This document shows, in pieces, positions 35,328 through 43,861 of a stretch of 64,000 nucleotides of DNA. The DNA lies in assembly GCF_028288465.1 (NCBI RefSeq), contig NZ_JAQBNR010000043.1:62001-126000 (forward strand), in the 5' to 3' direction. The translations under genes and the position numbers were made by a program. The stretch is from Ferruginibacter sp. (GTDB lineage: Bacteria > Bacteroidota > Bacteroidia > Chitinophagales > Chitinophagaceae). Positions within the stretch are counted from its first letter, which is position 1; each line of letters begins with the position of its first letter. Under the pieces are notes generated by a model. That model was not told the origin of the DNA. It saw only the letters and a program-made list of their open reading frames with translations, and searched no databases.

Positions 35328-36452
35328 ATGAACAGTCAATTATATGAACGATACCAGCGCCAGGTAATATTGCCGGAACTGGGTGAACAAGGCCAGCAAA
35401 AACTGTTGCAGGCAAAAGTGTTGGTGATCGGCGCGGGGGGATTGGGTTGCCCGGTATTGCAATACCTGGTGGCCGCTGGTGTTGGTACTATTGGTATTGT
35501 GGATGATGATGTGGTGGCGTTGAGTAACCTGCACCGGCAGGTGTTGTATTCGGTGGCAGATATCGGAACCTCAAAAGCAGCAACAGCAGCACGCGTATTG
35601 AGTGGACTAAATCCTGATATTAACATCATTGCGCACAATGCAAGGCTTACCACAGACAATGCCCTCGGCTTGATGGATGCATTTGATATTATCGTTGACG
35701 GCACAGATAATTTTGCCACCCGTTACATGATCAACGATGCCTGTGTGTTGCTGGACAAGCCATTGGTGTATGGCGCCATTTCACAATTTGAAGGACAGGC
35801 GGCCGTGTTCAATTACCCTTCCAAAAAAAATGGGGAGAGAATTAATTACCGTGATATTTTTCCGCATCCACCCAAAGAAGGGGAAGTGCTGAATTGTGCG
35901 GAAGCGGGTGTGTTGGGCGTATTGCCGGGTATCATAGGTGGGTTCATGGCCAATGAAACAATCAAAATGATTACAGGCATAGGAGAGTTGCTGGCCGGTC
36001 AGTTGCTTATCTATAATGCATTGAGCAACCAGGTGTACACACTGAAATTAACGGCAGGCGACAATACCCGGTCGTTGATACCGGTGGATAAAGCAGCATT
36101 CCTACAAACGGATTATGTATGGCTTTGTGCTGCTCCGCATTCCGACCTGGAAATAGACGTCCACACATTCAACGAACTACTTGCCAATGAAAAAGCTGCA
36201 TCCGTTATAGATGTACGTGAACCCGGTGAAATGCCGATGGTAACTGAATTTGCGACGATAAAAATTCCCCTCGGGCAGTTGACTGATCAAATGGATTTGA
36301 TTCAGTCAGATACTGTCATGTTGTTTTGCCAGAGTGGTAAAAGAAGTTTGCAGGCAGCCAACACCTTATCCGGTATTTTCGGAAATACAAAAAAGATTTA
36401 CAGTTTAAAAGGCGGTATTGTGCAATGGAAAAAACAGCAACCAACTGTATAA
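35328..36452 (+). CDS. HesA/MoeB/ThiF-family E1-like enzyme with rhodanese domain
   Basis: 374 residues. E1-like adenylating domain (about 5-245; YQRQVILPELGEQGQQKLL, GAGGLGCPVLQYLVAAG, DGTDNFATRYMINDACV, NCAEAGVLGVLPGI), then a C-terminal rhodanese domain (about 280-374) with active Cys in LFCQSGKRSLQAA. It should adenylate and sulfurate the Gly-Gly end of a MoaD/ThiS-like carrier. The zinc CxxC of MoeB is replaced (INYRDIFPHPP). The likely carrier gene lies 1.1 kb away on the other strand. Confidence 0.92.
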   Translation: MNSQLYERYQRQVILPELGEQGQQKLLQAKVLVIGAGGLGCPVLQYLVAAGVGTIGIVDDDVVALSNLHRQVLYSVADIGTSKAATAARVLSGLNPDINIIAHNARLTTDNALGLMDAFDIIVDGTDNFATRYMINDACVLLDKPLVYGAISQFEGQAAVFNYPSKKNGERINYRDIFPHPPKEGEVLNCAEAGVLGVLPGIIGGFMANETIKMITGIGELLAGQLLIYNALSNQVYTLKLTAGDNTRSLIPVDKAAFLQTDYVWLCAAPHSDLEIDVHTFNELLANEKAASVIDVREPGEMPMVTEFATIKIPLGQLTDQMDLIQSDTVMLFCQSGKRSLQAANTLSGIFGNTKKIYSLKGGIVQWKKQQPTV

Positions 36453-36462
36453 AGGCATCCGG

Positions 36463-37545
36463 CTAATCCGCAAATTGTACAGAGTATACCATCGGTAAAT
36501 AATTATTCAATGTCTGCCAGTTTTCGCCGCGGTCGGGCGAAAAAAATAAATTACCGGTAGTGGTGCCAAATGCAACGGCATCACCCGACGAGGCAAGGCA
36601 ATGGCGATACACAATATCAAAACAATTTTGCTGCGGCAATCCGTTCCGTTGTTCCTGCCAGGTTTTACCGCCATCATCCGTTCTGCAAATACACAGCGAT
36701 CCTTTAATGGCCGTACGGGTTACATCACTGCTGGCGGGCGCCACCCATGCCTGGTCCGCATTGTCTTCCGCAACGGCAATGGCAAAACCAAAATAAGCAG
36801 GTCCGCCGTTTTCGCTTATCTCTGTCCAGTTTTTTCCTGCATCTGGTGAACGGTAAATGCCGCAATGATTTTGCTGCCACAATATATCGTGGCTGGAGGG
36901 CGCCGCTACCAATATATGCGGATCGTATCCTGTTTCTGCATCGGGGTTTGGAAGAAACTCTGCTTTCATTCCTTTATTCCGGATGGCCCACGTTTTCCCC
37001 GCATCAAATGTTTCAAACACGCCGGCGCAACTGATGGCAATGTGTACATGATTCTCATCCCGCGGATCAACCACAATAGAATGAATGCCGGGCTGATCGC
37101 GGCCACCACCAAACCAGCCTTCCTTGCGGGTAGGGTGGTTCCATAACGATTCCACGAGTTCAAAACTATTGCCACCATCCTCGCTGATAAATAATCCGCC
37201 CGGATCGGTACCGATCCATAAACGCTGGGGATATTGTTTGCCTCCATGCGCCATGGCCCAGATATAGCGGGTAGTTGCAGGCGCACCATCTTTTAGTTCT
37301 GCACCTTTCGGGTAGGCCGGGGCAGTTATTTCTTCCCATGTTTTTCCCCTGTCTGCAGAGCGATGCAGTTTTACGCCCCAGTGGCCATGATCCTGGCAGG
37401 CCCACCAGGTGCCGGTTCTTTCATCGGCATAGGCAATGGAAACCGGGATGCCTTCAAAAGAAGTATTTTCTGCTGACCATTCGCCGTTGTTAAAACGGTA
37501 AGCAATCAAACCCTTGCGGGTACCAAGAAGCAATGTTGATTTCAT
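36463..37545 (-). CDS. Asp-box beta-propeller (BNR/sialidase-like) protein
   Basis: 360 residues without a signal peptide, hence probably cytoplasmic. At least six Asp-box turns (SADRGKTWEEI, SEDGGNSFELV, TFDAGKTWAIR, SPDAGKNWTEI, TDDGGKTWQEQ, SPDRGENWQTL) define a six- or seven-bladed propeller. A conserved segment GRDQPGIHSIVVDP is also present. It abuts the E1-like gene (convergent, 10 bp) and is 15 bp from a MoaD/ThiS-like gene, which reads as a conserved set. Catalytic sialidase residues are not evident. Confidence 0.85.
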   Translation of the reverse strand: MKSTLLLGTRKGLIAYRFNNGEWSAENTSFEGIPVSIAYADERTGTWWACQDHGHWGVKLHRSADRGKTWEEITAPAYPKGAELKDGAPATTRYIWAMAHGGKQYPQRLWIGTDPGGLFISEDGGNSFELVESLWNHPTRKEGWFGGGRDQPGIHSIVVDPRDENHVHIAISCAGVFETFDAGKTWAIRNKGMKAEFLPNPDAETGYDPHILVAAPSSHDILWQQNHCGIYRSPDAGKNWTEISENGGPAYFGFAIAVAEDNADQAWVAPASSDVTRTAIKGSLCICRTDDGGKTWQEQRNGLPQQNCFDIVYRHCLASSGDAVAFGTTTGNLFFSPDRGENWQTLNNYLPMVYSVQFAD

Positions 37546-37560
37546 ATCACTGTTTTATGT

Positions 37561-37833
37561 TTATCCGCCTGATAATGCCTGCATAATATAAATCTCGCTG
37601 CCGCTGGTAAACGCATCGCTCAGTGCCTTACGATCGGCAATCATTTTACCATCAATAAAAATGTTGACGTGTTTACGCAGGCTGCCCTGTTCATCCAGTA
37701 TGTAAGAGGAGATGCCCGGATACTGCTGATCCAGTTCCGTAAAAATTTCCGGAAATGTTTTGCCCGCAGCCGGTATTGCTTTCAGTTCCGGGAAAAACCT
37801 TTTCAAAGCGTAAGTGAATTTTATCGTTGGCAT
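37561..37833 (-). CDS. MoaD/ThiS-family sulfur-carrier protein
   Basis: 90 residues with a ubiquitin-like fold (IKFTYALKRFFPEL, HVNIFIDGKMIADRKALSD) and the required Gly-Gly C-terminus (IYIMQALSGG). It would be adenylated and thiocarboxylated by the E1-like protein at 35.3 kb. Same strand as the beta-propeller gene, with 15 bp between them, so the two are probably co-transcribed. Whether it serves molybdopterin, cysteine or another sulfur product is not visible. Confidence 0.88.
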   Translation of the reverse strand: MPTIKFTYALKRFFPELKAIPAAGKTFPEIFTELDQQYPGISSYILDEQGSLRKHVNIFIDGKMIADRKALSDAFTSGSEIYIMQALSGG

Positions 37834-39993: not shown

Positions 39994-41016
39994 TCAACAT
40001 CCACCCTTGCCGGGTATGATGGCATAGATCAGGTTGCCTGAAACAAATAAATTGAAGGCCTTACCGTCTACAGCAGGAAGTAATAGTTTCCATGTTTTTC
40101 CCTTGTCTGATGATTTGAAAATGCCGTCACGATGAGCACAAACTAAGTTTTCACCAACCTGGAAAATATAAGGCATGAAGGCTTTCAAAGTTGGGCGATC
40201 ATTCCAGGTCCGTCCTATTGAATCAATAGCATCTTTGTTGCCGGCATTATTGGGCTGCCAGGTTTTACCGCCGTCATAGGATGTTTTTATCCCCCTGGGA
40301 TTTGACGCTGAAGTAGCAATCATAGCAGCGAATCCACGGTTGATCTGTTTTACATCCCAAACTTCACTGCTATCACTGGTCACCGGCGCCCAGGTTTCGC
40401 CATTATCGGTTGATCTTATCAGCTTTCTCCAATTGGTCGCCAGCAACACGCCATCCGCCTCTGCCATATGCCCTACCAGGGTTCCGGCATACACCTGTTT
40501 CCAGGTTGATCCATTGTCATCCGTTTTAAAAAAGCCTTTTTGGGTGCCGATGAAAATTGCACCTCCGGCAGTTTCAAAAGTGCTGCGTACTACCGGAATC
40601 TGAAAAGTATCGAATACCGGCGACCATACACTCGTGCCGTCTGTTTTTTTCACATTTACAGTCCAGGACTTGTATGCAACTGTCCCGGGCTTACCGGGGG
40701 CTATGCTGCTATCTTCGCCGTGGAAAATTTCTTTCGTCCAATAAGGAGCGGTGGCATTTGGTGTACTTTTATAAAGTGCGCTGTCAACCTTTAGAAACAG
40801 CCCTTTATCATTTAGAAAGAAGCTATTTCCCCGGATACTGTCTTGCCGCAAATTGTCCGGCAGCCCTTCGCTGATGTCCTGCCATGTTTGTCCGCCATCT
40901 GCAGATTTAAAAACGATGTTTGTTTTTACCCCCGCTTTCTTTTCTTTTAGTACAAAAGCATATATACCAAATGATACCAGGATGATGGCCGGCACAAACA
41001 CAAATAATCTTTTCAT
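39994..41016 (-). CDS. Membrane-anchored or secreted Asp-box beta-propeller, copy 1
   Basis: 340 residues from ATG 41016 with an N-terminal signal/anchor (FVFVPAIILVSFGIYAFVL). Five Asp-box turns (SADGGQTWQDI, TDDNGSTWKQV, STDNGETWAPV, SYDGGKTWQPN, SSDKGKTWKLL). TFETAGGAIFIGTQKGFFK and QVGENLVCAHRDGIFKSS are shared with the next gene, so the two are tandem duplicates. It is on the opposite strand to a membrane regulator at 42.3 kb and 100 bp from copy 2. Probably a receptor- or YCF48-like surface protein; function unknown. Confidence 0.8.
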   Translation of the reverse strand: MKRLFVFVPAIILVSFGIYAFVLKEKKAGVKTNIVFKSADGGQTWQDISEGLPDNLRQDSIRGNSFFLNDKGLFLKVDSALYKSTPNATAPYWTKEIFHGEDSSIAPGKPGTVAYKSWTVNVKKTDGTSVWSPVFDTFQIPVVRSTFETAGGAIFIGTQKGFFKTDDNGSTWKQVYAGTLVGHMAEADGVLLATNWRKLIRSTDNGETWAPVTSDSSEVWDVKQINRGFAAMIATSASNPRGIKTSYDGGKTWQPNNAGNKDAIDSIGRTWNDRPTLKAFMPYIFQVGENLVCAHRDGIFKSSDKGKTWKLLLPAVDGKAFNLFVSGNLIYAIIPGKGGC

Positions 41017-41116: not shown

Positions 41117-42181
41117 TTAGCAATGTGACTCCGTCTGTATGGCATAAATCACGTTGCCGGAAACAGATAATGTAAACATCTTTCCTTTATCCGCAGGAAG
41201 CACCAGTTTCCATGTTTTTCCCTTGTTGGAGGATTTGTAAATTCCATCCGTATGACCGCAAAAGAAGTTTTCACCCACCTGGATAATGGAAGTTTTGTAC
41301 TCTGGGCCCGGAGGGGCGGCTTCTTTAGGATGCCATGCTGAGTCAGTGCCTTGTGCCGGATTGCTGACATTAATGAGCGGCCACGGTGAGTCGGTAATAG
41401 CTTGCCCGGGGAATCCTGCATCAATGGGCTGCCAGGTTTTGCCGCCGTCATAAGATGTTCGTATTCTCCTGGTCTTTACGGCTGTACTGTAGCTAATAGC
41501 CGCAAGCCCACCCTGGATGCAGGCTACATCAATGCCCACGCCACCCTCACTGATTACCACCGACCAGTGTTCACCCTCATCGGCCGACCGTATTATCCCG
41601 CTCATGCTGGTGGCCACTAATACACCGTTCTGCTCTACTATTTTAATTACCCAGCCTCCGGCATGCACCTGTTTCCAGGTTTTTCCATTGTCTGTAGATT
41701 TATAAAGACCGTTATCGGAACCGATGAAAACGGCGCCGCCGGCAGTTTCAAAAACCGTGCGTATATTCCCTTTAAAATTTGTGTACACAGGTGACCATAC
41801 ACTTGTTCCGCTTATTTTTTGTACAATCTGACCTCCGTAATTGTATGCAAACATCCCATGCTTGCCAGCAGCAATGCTACTCCATTTGTCAGGGAAAATT
41901 TCTTTTTGCCAGAAAGAAGTGGTGGAATTTGGGGTGCTGTGATAGGTGTCTTTCCCACCACGTAGCCAGAGCCCGTTTTCATTTGCATAGAAACCACCTT
42001 CTTTCAAATTTCCAGGCAGCCCTTTGCTGATATCCTGCCATGTTTGTCCGCCATCTGCAGATTTGAAAATGATGTTTGCAGTTGCAGCCTTGTCTGTTTT
42101 TAATATTGGCTGATTATCCGGAAATGGAAACACAAAAGGGAATTGGAAAAGGAGCAAAAGAGCAAGGCTATAAATTTTCAT
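41117..42181 (-). CDS. Secreted Asp-box beta-propeller, copy 2
   Basis: 354 residues from ATG 42181 with a signal peptide (LALLLLFQFPFVFPFP); the longer open frame overlaps the divergent regulator and is not used. Asp-boxes: SADGGQTWQDI, STDNGKTWKQV, SADEGEHWSVV, SYDGGKTWQPI, SSNKGKTWKLV. TFETAGGAVFIGSDNGLYK and QVGENFFCGHTDGIYKSS mark it as a close paralogue of copy 1, with which it is probably co-transcribed. It is the first gene after the divergent promoter region that carries the phased repeat array. Confidence 0.82.
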   Translation of the reverse strand: MKIYSLALLLLFQFPFVFPFPDNQPILKTDKAATANIIFKSADGGQTWQDISKGLPGNLKEGGFYANENGLWLRGGKDTYHSTPNSTTSFWQKEIFPDKWSSIAAGKHGMFAYNYGGQIVQKISGTSVWSPVYTNFKGNIRTVFETAGGAVFIGSDNGLYKSTDNGKTWKQVHAGGWVIKIVEQNGVLVATSMSGIIRSADEGEHWSVVISEGGVGIDVACIQGGLAAISYSTAVKTRRIRTSYDGGKTWQPIDAGFPGQAITDSPWPLINVSNPAQGTDSAWHPKEAAPPGPEYKTSIIQVGENFFCGHTDGIYKSSNKGKTWKLVLPADKGKMFTLSVSGNVIYAIQTESHC

Positions 42182-42251
42182 GACTATTATTGATTGGGTG
42201 AAACAATAAAGTAAAGCTACCGGTTGGCAATTAGCCTGCAGCTTTTTAATA

Positions 42252-42300
42252 GTAAAAACTTGTAAAGTATGTGTAAAACGTTTGTAAAACCACGTAAAAC
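42252..42300. promoter_or_regulatory. Five phased GTAAAA(C) direct repeats, putative OmpR-type operator
   Basis: GTAAAA-type units start at 42252, 42262, 42273, 42284 and 42294, spacings 10, 11, 11 and 10 bp, so all lie on one face of the helix. The last three are GTAAAAC. OmpR/PhoB-family winged helices typically bind direct repeats one turn apart. The array lies between the divergent propeller gene (42181) and the regulator gene (42327), so it could control both. Binding is inferred. Confidence 0.6.
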
Positions 42301-42326
42301 TGCCGTATACAGCGTATTTTGCACAC

Positions 42327-43223
42327 ATGAAGAAGTCATTTTTGCTGGTCGGGTCATCCATCATGGCAATTGCTATTTTGATTGCCGCTGTTGCATTTAG
42401 CAATAAAAAAAATGACATTCCAGCAAATCACCTGGAAGTGGTATTACGTGATATCGGACACGAGTTGTTGCTTTCAGCTAAAGATTCTTCCTCCCGGGTA
42501 CTGCCGGTTAAGAAAATAAATGACCATACCTACCAGATATCCTTTCAAAATGACTTTGGTTTTATTTCAGATTCACTCATCAATTTAGTTCAACGGACGT
42601 TTCAAAAAAATGCGCTGGCAAAAGATTATATAGTGAATCTGAGGAATTGTAAGCAAAATGAAACGGTTTTTGCATTCGAAATAAATAGCCATACAGGCGA
42701 TTTAACACCTTGCAGGGGTCGTAAGCTCGACGTCGGTTGTTATGTTATTGAAATTGATTTGTTGAAGAAAGAGCAGTTTAATTTCCTTTGGTTGTTGCTG
42801 TTGATTATTCCTTTGGGTGTTCTTGTTTTTTATATGATTAATCCCTTTCGGAAAAAAGAAGTGCAGGAAGTGCAGGAAGAGAAAGAGGAGGAAGCAGCGC
42901 AGGAACCAATCGCCGGTAGCAATGATTATATACCATTAGGAAGCTTTCAGTTTTATACCGGTAATAATGTGCTCAAAAGGGAGCATGCAACTATTCCGCT
43001 TTCGGAAAAAGAAGCAAAGGCGCTAAAAATATTTGCTGAAAACATCAATCAAATCGTAGCAAGGGAAAAACTGATGAAAGAGATCTGGGAAGATGAAGGT
43101 ATCGTAGTAATCAGTAGAAATGTGGATGTACTGGTATCCAAATTGCGTAAGAAATTAAGCGACGATGACTCCGTTAAATTTATTAATGTACATGGGAAGG
43201 GGTACAAATTTGTTATTGGGTAG
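42327..43223 (+). CDS. ToxR-like membrane-spanning transcriptional regulator
   Basis: 298 residues. N-terminal membrane helix or signal-anchor (5-24), a periplasmic domain (25-150) with Cys108, Cys129 and Cys138 that could form a disulfide, a second helix (153-171, FLWLLLLIIPLGVLVFYMI), an acidic linker (KKEVQEVQEEKEEEAAQ) and a C-terminal OmpR-type winged helix (205-298; PLSEKEAKALKIFAENIN, SRNVDVLVSKLRKKL, NVHGKGYKFV). A one-component transmembrane regulator: the sensor is outside, the DNA-binding part inside. No phosphorylated receiver domain. The phased GTAAAAC array lies 27 bp upstream. Confidence 0.85.
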   Translation: MKKSFLLVGSSIMAIAILIAAVAFSNKKNDIPANHLEVVLRDIGHELLLSAKDSSSRVLPVKKINDHTYQISFQNDFGFISDSLINLVQRTFQKNALAKDYIVNLRNCKQNETVFAFEINSHTGDLTPCRGRKLDVGCYVIEIDLLKKEQFNFLWLLLLIIPLGVLVFYMINPFRKKEVQEVQEEKEEEAAQEPIAGSNDYIPLGSFQFYTGNNVLKREHATIPLSEKEAKALKIFAENINQIVAREKLMKEIWEDEGIVVISRNVDVLVSKLRKKLSDDDSVKFINVHGKGYKFVIG

Positions 43224-43240: not shown

Positions 43241-43861
43241 TCAGGCCAGCCAAAAATCAATGTGGTATTTTATCAGCCATGCTCCATTGATTTTTGTCAG
43301 TATCGCCAATGCGCCATGCGCATTCAACCCATTCCGATAATGCGAATGATAACATACAGCAGTTTGTCCATCTTCAGCATAGCTGATATTTGAAAATTGA
43401 AAGAGCCCACCTGAACCGGGATATTTCTTATAGAACTTTTTCCATTCGGCTTTAGGATTTTTTTTGAAGGGAGACCTAGCGATCATAAATACCTTAATGC
43501 CAACATCAATCTGTCCATGTAATGCGGAGCCGGTCGTTTGGCTTTTATAGAATCTCAGTACTTCATGTTGCGTTGCGGTATCTATTGACCGTACGTTGTT
43601 TCCCTTGTCGTCACGAGTTGAAAACCTAAGTGTTTCTAATTGTTGAGGGTCTTGTGATTGAATGGCCTGTGTTACCCAATCACCTGGTTCTTTGTCATTT
43701 TGTAGTAATGCATTAATAATAGTAACAGACGCCGTTGTTTTGATAATCTCTGAATTTATTATTGCAGTGTAAACTTCATTGTCAACAGAAATAATTTGCT
43801 GTCCAAACAGCAATTGAATGGTCGATAGTAAAACTGTCGTTATAAAGATCCGTTTGAGCAT
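43241..43861 (-). CDS. Hypothetical secreted protein
   Basis: 206 residues with a signal peptide (FITTVLLSTIQLLFGQQ). A C-terminal segment (EWKKFYKKYPGSGGLFQFSN, VCYHSHYRNGLNAHGALAIL, WLIKYHIDFWLA) looks like an NTF2-type pocket. No family name can be given. Convergent with the regulator gene (17 bp apart). Such proteins occur as single genes in Bacteroidota. Confidence 0.65.
   Translation of the reverse strand: MLKRIFITTVLLSTIQLLFGQQIISVDNEVYTAIINSEIIKTTASVTIINALLQNDKEPGDWVTQAIQSQDPQQLETLRFSTRDDKGNNVRSIDTATQHEVLRFYKSQTTGSALHGQIDVGIKVFMIARSPFKKNPKAEWKKFYKKYPGSGGLFQFSNISYAEDGQTAVCYHSHYRNGLNAHGALAILTKINGAWLIKYHIDFWLA

Follow-up and report, generated by a model that had tools for sequence, protein, structure and literature searches.

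The regulator locus and its array

The window, by which we mean the whole 64,000-nucleotide stretch of Ferruginibacter sp. DNA that was analysed, contains a gene for a predicted membrane-bound regulator and a gene for a secreted-looking beta-propeller that diverge from a short region carrying an array of direct repeats (Table 1). The propeller assignment comes from PF02012, which matched in three stretches (42.1 bits against a cut-off of 27) with Asp-box repeats present. The second propeller has no array of its own and is probably co-transcribed with the first. On the other side of the locus, 3' of the regulator and on the other strand, lies a gene for a secreted-looking 206-aa protein (43241-43861) for which no Pfam match was found. 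Further away, at 35328-37833, a sortilin/BNR-type propeller that has neither a terminal Cys nor an array sits beside two other genes. We take these neighbours to encode a ThiF/MoeB-like protein and a small MoaD/ThiS-like protein ending in Gly-Gly, an arrangement that resembles a sulfur-carrier-type cluster.

Table 1. Features of the divergent locus, in window coordinates.
Feature	Position	Strand	Basis or remark
Second Asp-box propeller, paralogue, 340 aa, ends GKGGC	39994..41016	-	Downstream of first propeller
Divergent candidate target, secreted-looking Asp-box (BNR) beta-propeller, 354 aa, ends TESHC	41117..42181	-	Pfam
Predicted propeller -7 box, TAGCTTTA	42212..42219	-	One change from TAnnTTTG; 32 nt from array edge
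Putative operator array, five phased GTAAA units	42252..42299	+	Unit starts 42252, 42262, 42273, 42284, 42294
Predicted regulator -7 box, TATTTTGC	42315..42322	+	Fits TAnnTTGY
Predicted membrane-bound one-component regulator, 298 aa	42327..43223	+	Pfam match, AlphaFold2 model

An earlier, sequence-only reading of this DNA had described five GTAAAA(C) units spaced 10, 11, 11 and 10 bp between the divergent starts of the regulator (42327) and the propeller (42181). The five positions, their spacing and both ATGs proved correct, and the unit itself needed trimming: the one at 42262 reads GTAAAG, so that the core common to the array is GTAAA. Units two to four read TGTAAA (at 42261, 42272 and 42283), such that pairs 2-3 and 3-4 each form TGTAAA-N5-TGTAAA, and the unit consensus is TGTAAA(A/T). 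The response regulator WalR/VicR (YycF) is described as binding TGTWAH-N5-TGTWAH half-sites, one turn apart, through its winged helix (PMC4168254), and the window array holds two overlapping exact matches to that box sequence. Searching the whole 6.88 Mb genome for a three-unit phased pattern returned 4 matches, 3 of them overlapping at the window array, and the reversed pattern used as a control returned 0. The one extra match (C5:90513, L194) was rejected as a regulon member and treated as chance because it lies at the end of one ORF, is opposed to the next gene and has three units only.

The regulator is a member of the OmpR/PhoB winged-helix family by its match to Trans_reg_C (PF00486, residues 222-295, 63.1 bits against a cut-off of 26.2). 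No receiver domain was found, Trans_reg_C being the only Pfam match above its curated cut-off in the 298-aa protein, and the NCBIfam response-regulator models among the best 25 of 36 matched from about residue 165 only, far under their cut-offs. The AlphaFold2 model lays out a helix (3-28), an alpha/beta domain, a second helix (153-171), a linker and a C-terminal winged helix (200-298) with a mean pLDDT of 74.3; block means are 76-91 over residues 31-120, 63 over residues 121-130 and 82-88 in the winged helix, save 68-74 over residues 251-270. The alpha/beta domain, at about residues 30-150 and containing C108, C129 and C138, is predicted to be periplasmic, and the first helix may be a signal peptide, given the signal-peptide-like N-termini of the homologues L014 and L015. 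The three Cys, two helices and OmpR-type winged helix of the sequence-only reading were thus recovered, the helices and the periplasmic side as predictions.

The solved folds nearest to the full-length model were CadC, SaeR, ToxR and other OmpR-type DNA-binding domains, all by their winged helices only. The winged helix aligned to the CadC domain with a Z of 15.7 over 100 residues (rmsd 2.2), and to the CadC and SaeR domains alike with Z about 15 over 97-100 residues. For a fragment model of the periplasmic domain, Foldseek gave no match at E <= 0.001 and the best VIA-align Z was 6.8; because the mean pLDDT of this fragment was only 64.7, we claim neither a new nor a known fold. No full-length paralogue of the regulator was found in the window genome, where six other matches cover the winged helix only.

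The protein had also been called ToxR-like, a description that holds for its OmpR-type winged helix, which is C-terminal, and fails on domain order, which is inverted; family membership was not borne out either. ToxR-like receptors, as PMC5936718 describes them, have an N-terminal cytoplasmic DNA-binding domain, one membrane helix and a C-terminal periplasmic domain. The present regulator shares with ToxR- and CadC-type proteins an OmpR-type winged helix and the absence of a receiver domain, and its winged helix is predicted to be tethered to a periplasmic sensor domain; here, however, the winged helix follows the predicted helix 153-171 at the C-terminal end and the putative periplasmic domain is N-terminal.

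The array in orthologues, in the wider family and across genomes

A contig scan of genomes yielded 19 relatives, 16 of which (L037-L052, 66-86% identity) have upstream DNA, and the nearest named relative is Ferruginibacter paludis (L037). Orthologous regions that keep the regulator and lack the spaced repeats had been named beforehand as what would speak against the array. The upstream alignment instead showed four GTAAA units at 10/11/10-11 bp in all 16 orthologues, so the reading stands on this point, and a divergently placed propeller homologue was present in all 16 as well. At the fifth position, GTAAA is shared by the window with L037 alone (1/16), the others mostly having CCGAAAAC or similar there.

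In an even sample of 396 genomes of the order, an HMM made from 11 members matched 110 at E <= 1e-30, with G124, G139, G163 and G319 matching by the winged helix alone and G248 from position 127 only; at least 105 of the 396 cover most of the model. In a sample of the phylum, 26 of 395 genomes matched, G751 among them by the winged helix only. The 116 regulator loci were reduced to 109 by removing duplicates (L008, L063, L071, L072) and loci with no upstream DNA (L013, L054, L069), and the sets of 91 and 89 loci were filtered only by 4-mer overlap (< 0.5), such that relatives remain inside them.

Ranking of all 1024 5-mers for repetition at 10/11 bp upstream of the regulator placed GTAAA first. 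A GTAAA pair at this spacing, within 250 bp upstream, occurs in 61 of the 91 filtered loci, compared with a mean of 0.29 and a maximum of 3 in 100 shuffles, 0/91 inside the gene and 1/91 in the opposite orientation. Distances between unit pairs peak at 10-11, 21-22 and 32, and weakly at 41-42, with 13-19 and 23-29 nearly empty, which places the units on one helix face. A-runs every 10-11 bp can curve DNA, and a repeat of this period would allow the array to serve as a phased A-tract bend or an upstream promoter element instead of a protein-specific operator. That account is very improbable given the 5-mer scan, where the 61 loci of GTAAA compare with 48 for TGTAA, 29 for TAAAA and only 7 for AAAAA, and given the fixed orientation (reversed strand, 1/91). 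It also sits poorly with L207-L210, where GTCAA units at the same spacing break the A-run yet hold the phase.

With a wider spacing rule, 97 of the 109 loci have at least two units inside 250 bp, and at least two phased units occur in about 106 of the 109 when L064, whose array is further upstream of the regulator, and the arrays on the other strand are included. This was the comparison with repeats before homologous regulators that had been suggested from the sequence. The figure is given as about 106 because the 107 array records include L083, whose sole pair is distant and considered spurious; by exact units, 90 of these records have three or more and 17 have two only. No accepted array was found in 3 of the 109 loci, namely L083 (GTAAA at the wrong spacing), L093 (one unit) and L108 (GTCAA-like variants). 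At L064 (G243), inserted short repeats have shifted the array to 250-290 bp upstream, and more repeats lie on the target side.

Eight loci have the array on the other strand (L132, L137, L139, L142, L144, L146, L147 and L148), and in all except L137 it precedes a target gene that lies upstream of the regulator and runs in the same direction. The array in these seven rearranged loci keeps the TTTAC-towards-target polarity of the divergent loci, and comparison of the loci shows that it moves with the target gene through rearrangement. In L107 and L122 the upstream gene is co-directional, yet the array remains beside the regulator; L107, L121 and L122 yielded no target ORF. In other orders of the class (L196-L212), a GT(A/C)AA pair at 10/11 bp was present within the fetched stretch in 11 of 17 loci, L199-L201 have a 12/9 form, and L196 and L202 have neither. 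Several units in L207-L210 are GTCAA with 11-bp spacing, alongside GTAAA, and it is possible that operator and reader co-change there.

A scan for three phased units, blind to gene content, covered 40 genomes, 20 with the regulator and 20 without it, the latter defined by the absence of a match at E <= 1e-30 when up to six candidates were scored in each genome. All 20 regulator genomes matched at the regulator locus, partly by construction since they were picked for arrays already known, and 4 of the 20 genomes without the regulator hold one isolated three-unit match each. The regulator genomes gave 15 extra match clusters, 7 of which were inspected. For 5 of these 7 the gene that follows is of a known target family, and the 4-4.5 kb fetched contain no regulator: G235 has two such propellers, ending SKGGC and NRGC, G394 a YceI-type and a beta-lactamase-type target, and G136 a beta-lactamase-type target; the other 2 of the 7 do not precede target-family genes. 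Of the 8 further clusters, four resemble those two kinds (the sequence of L192 recurs in G424, and the repeat of L193 at three more places in G394). Matches rejected as non-targets were L192, L193 (simple tandem repeat) and L195 (in a genome without the regulator). A YceI gene (L249) carries a two-unit array on a contig different from that of its genome's regulator. Propeller homologues (E <= 1e-12) were found in 0 of 20 genomes without the regulator and in 10 of 10 regulator genomes, the latter chosen for carrying such propellers.

These distributions bear on whether a soluble response regulator of the WalR, RprY or PhoB kind binds the array, in which case the membrane regulator and the propeller would merely be its targets. 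The units do fit the WalR/VicR consensus, and the six other winged-helix matches in the genome lie in frames of about 230-250 aa. We nonetheless regard a soluble binder as improbable, as the array goes with the membrane regulator family in about 106 of 109 loci, the window genome has it here only (plus one stray match), and just 4 of 20 genomes without the membrane regulator hold a three-unit match, a single one each; the four genomes examined in this respect (G004, G009, G017, G025) all have winged-helix matches.

The conservation of the array, its phasing and polarity, its preferred distance from the -7 box (see below), its movement with the target and the additional targets that lie away from any regulator together argue that the array is probably the operator through which the adjacent membrane regulator controls the target gene. 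Comparison across genomes gives good support to the local circuit of the sequence-only reading, a putative one that would serve the propeller and probably also the regulator gene; with the ToxR-like label not borne out, that reading as a whole is partly supported.

Promoter geometry and the proposed circuit

TAnnTTTG, spanning -12 to -5, is given as the flavobacterial sigma-A -7 box in PMC9723704. For the target box, the window and all 16 orthologues have TAnnTTTA, which departs from this consensus at a single base, at an offset of 32 or 33 nt (17/17). Counting outwards from the array on the target side, the exact TAnnTTTG stands at 32/33 nt in 34 of 89 loci, and at 21-23 nt in six loci and 45 nt in two, about one turn nearer or further. 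When TAnnTTTG and TAnnTTGY are taken together, 45 of 89 loci have a box in one of three in-phase target intervals, compared with 0/89 in each of four out-of-phase intervals of the same size; an exact box in the in-phase intervals is absent from 44 of 89 loci.

Towards the regulator, 39 of 80 loci have a -7 box at 25-28 or 36-39 nt from the last unit, the other 41 having none there. A box is found within 60 nt of the regulator ATG in 44 of the 80, and in 26 of these 44 its TA is exactly 12 nt before the ATG. Because the published box spans -12 to -5, this geometry predicts the regulator +1 on the A of the ATG and hence a leaderless mRNA, which is possibly conserved in the family. In the window, the predicted starts are 42207 (minus) for the propeller and 42327 (plus) for the regulator.

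We propose that the cytoplasmic C-terminal winged helix would bind, head-to-tail, four (here five) TGTAAA-type half-sites on one helix face, and that the regulator so bound would control two promoters that face opposite ways: that of the divergent propeller, with a -7 box beginning 32 nt beyond the array, and that of its own gene. The periplasmic domain, with its Cys108-Cys138 pair and lone invariant Cys129, would gate this control on an envelope signal. The regulator would most likely activate the target, and, given the array-regulator-target link, activation is clearly the likelier sign.

The opposite sign, in which the bound regulator would keep both genes repressed until released by a signal in the envelope, would leave that link intact and appears rather unlikely. 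Promoter-adjacent direct repeats can serve either sign, and the fifth unit in the window spans about -33 to -29 relative to the start predicted for the regulator, a place from which it could obstruct polymerase. Set against this are the target side of the array, which stops about 45 bp short of the predicted start in a preferred helical phase, and the finding that no TTG is enriched at one -33-type position upstream of the -7 box among 62 aligned promoters, which fits activator dependence of the target promoter.

Activated or repressed, the proposed operator resembles those of WalR/VicR and PhoB in having half-sites one turn apart and, as predicted binder, the same type of winged helix. It differs from them in having two to five half-sites at a preferred distance from a Bacteroidota -7 box, and in that the protein presumed to bind it sits in the membrane and lacks a phosphorylation domain. 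Judged by sequence, the system would be a variant form of one-component regulation at the membrane, its putative operator being of an ordinary WalR-like kind. In the co-component signal transduction systems VtrA/VtrC, ToxR/ToxS and PsaE/PsaF, as described in PMC9214523, a membrane-tethered winged-helix factor is coupled genetically to a neighbouring envelope protein, as the regulator here appears to be. The partner in those systems, with which the factor forms an obligate heterodimer, is a membrane-tethered lipocalin-like co-sensor from the same operon, whereas the partner here is secreted-looking, belongs to an exchangeable family, is usually divergent and is itself an apparent target. By titles and the starts of abstracts, we recognised no description of this regulator family in the open-access literature. 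The putative circuit is defined from sequence alone in at least 105 of the 396 sampled genomes of the order, and its operator is recognisable in raw sequence, from which targets can be predicted; with regulator, operator, predicted promoter geometry and target all given, each step is testable.

Cysteines in the regulator and at the ends of its putative targets

Cys129, which sits in C-x-G-R, Arg132, Arg41 and Asp53 are invariant in 109/109 members of the regulator family. Cys108 and Cys138 are each present in 92 of 109 and are both missing from the very same 17, with 8 joint changes on the best tree and 4 independent pairs on supported branches (sign test p 0.125). This pattern suggests a Cys108-Cys138 disulfide that would leave Cys129 as a lone conserved thiol. 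A disulfide is likewise described for the sensor domain of ToxR (PMC8359183).

Evaluating the targets revealed a terminal Cys in 58 of 98 complete sequences, 51 of them ending in Gly-Cys, where the 98 include some doubtful entries (L083, the 103-aa frame of L055, L137, which is the regulator itself, and the short frames L085 and L149); in the filtered set the count was 43 of 80. All 30 Asp-box propellers and all 15 members of a ~185-aa family end in Cys, 10 of the latter with no other Cys. The proportion falls to 7/12 in Reg_prop propellers, 3/9 in YceI proteins, 2/7 in the group containing TonB_C-like proteins and 1/11 in a ~137-aa family, and to none in two Reg_prop+YceI proteins (0/2), two short frames (0/2) and the beta-lactamase, DoxX, cytochrome and other small groups (0/10). 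The 40 targets in which the terminal Cys is missing thus include 10 of the 11 ~137-aa proteins, 6 of the 9 YceI proteins and 5 of the 12 Reg_prop propellers.

Among background ORFs of at least 130 aa, which were mechanical ORFs and not called genes, from 400 kb of 14 of these genomes, the terminal Cys was found in 0 of 282, and in 0 of 93 with a hydrophobic N-terminus. A YceI control gave 0 of 28 proteins from 12 genomes, 26 of them without an array, after 30 of 94 matches were read and two antisense frames (L234 and L238) were dropped; the only one ending in C was L234. With 58 of 98 targets carrying it against 0 of 282 in the background, and 40 of 98 without it, the tail goes with the circuit without being required by it. 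This association with C-terminal Gly-Cys is the unexpected part of the system.

The tail state changed 17 times on the regulator tree, and no link was seen on that tree between the terminal Cys of the target and loss of the regulator Cys pair. An intramolecular disulfide was rejected as a general reason for the tails, given the 10 of 15 ~185-aa members with no other Cys; most propeller targets keep another Cys 44-46 residues from the end, and for propellers such a bond is possible.

The Gly-Cys tails and the lone invariant Cys raise the question of how an inner-membrane regulator reads the envelope. As a tentative answer, which we consider possible and still somewhat unlikely, Cys129 may be a docking or exchange site for the Gly-Cys tail of the target, making the tail a portable tag in a thiol-coupled envelope feedback. 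Secreted folds of unrelated kinds (Asp-box propeller, Reg_prop propeller, YceI, TonB_C-like and the ~185-aa family) would then have acquired the tag upon joining the circuit, and the cell could read the amount of folded, exported product or its redox state. The sulfur carrier SoxY has a C-terminal Gly-Gly-Cys arm and is similar in that it is secreted and carries a Cys close to its C-terminus on a short stretch of glycines; in the present targets, by contrast, folds that are not related to one another bear the tail, and the chain ends with the Cys.

Two loci (L090 and L096) have a single target protein in which a Reg_prop propeller is fused to a YceI domain, families that are otherwise separate targets of this regulator family. 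Among the 17 loci from other orders of the class, nine (L198-L201, L205 and L207-L210) have a nearest upstream gene whose product ends in Cys, and the divergent targets of L207-L210, from another order, end in DRC, DMC or DGC. At L198, a phased array at about 1039-1060 lies some 0.5 kb upstream of a co-directional gene that precedes the regulator and whose product ends in KPKKDGC.
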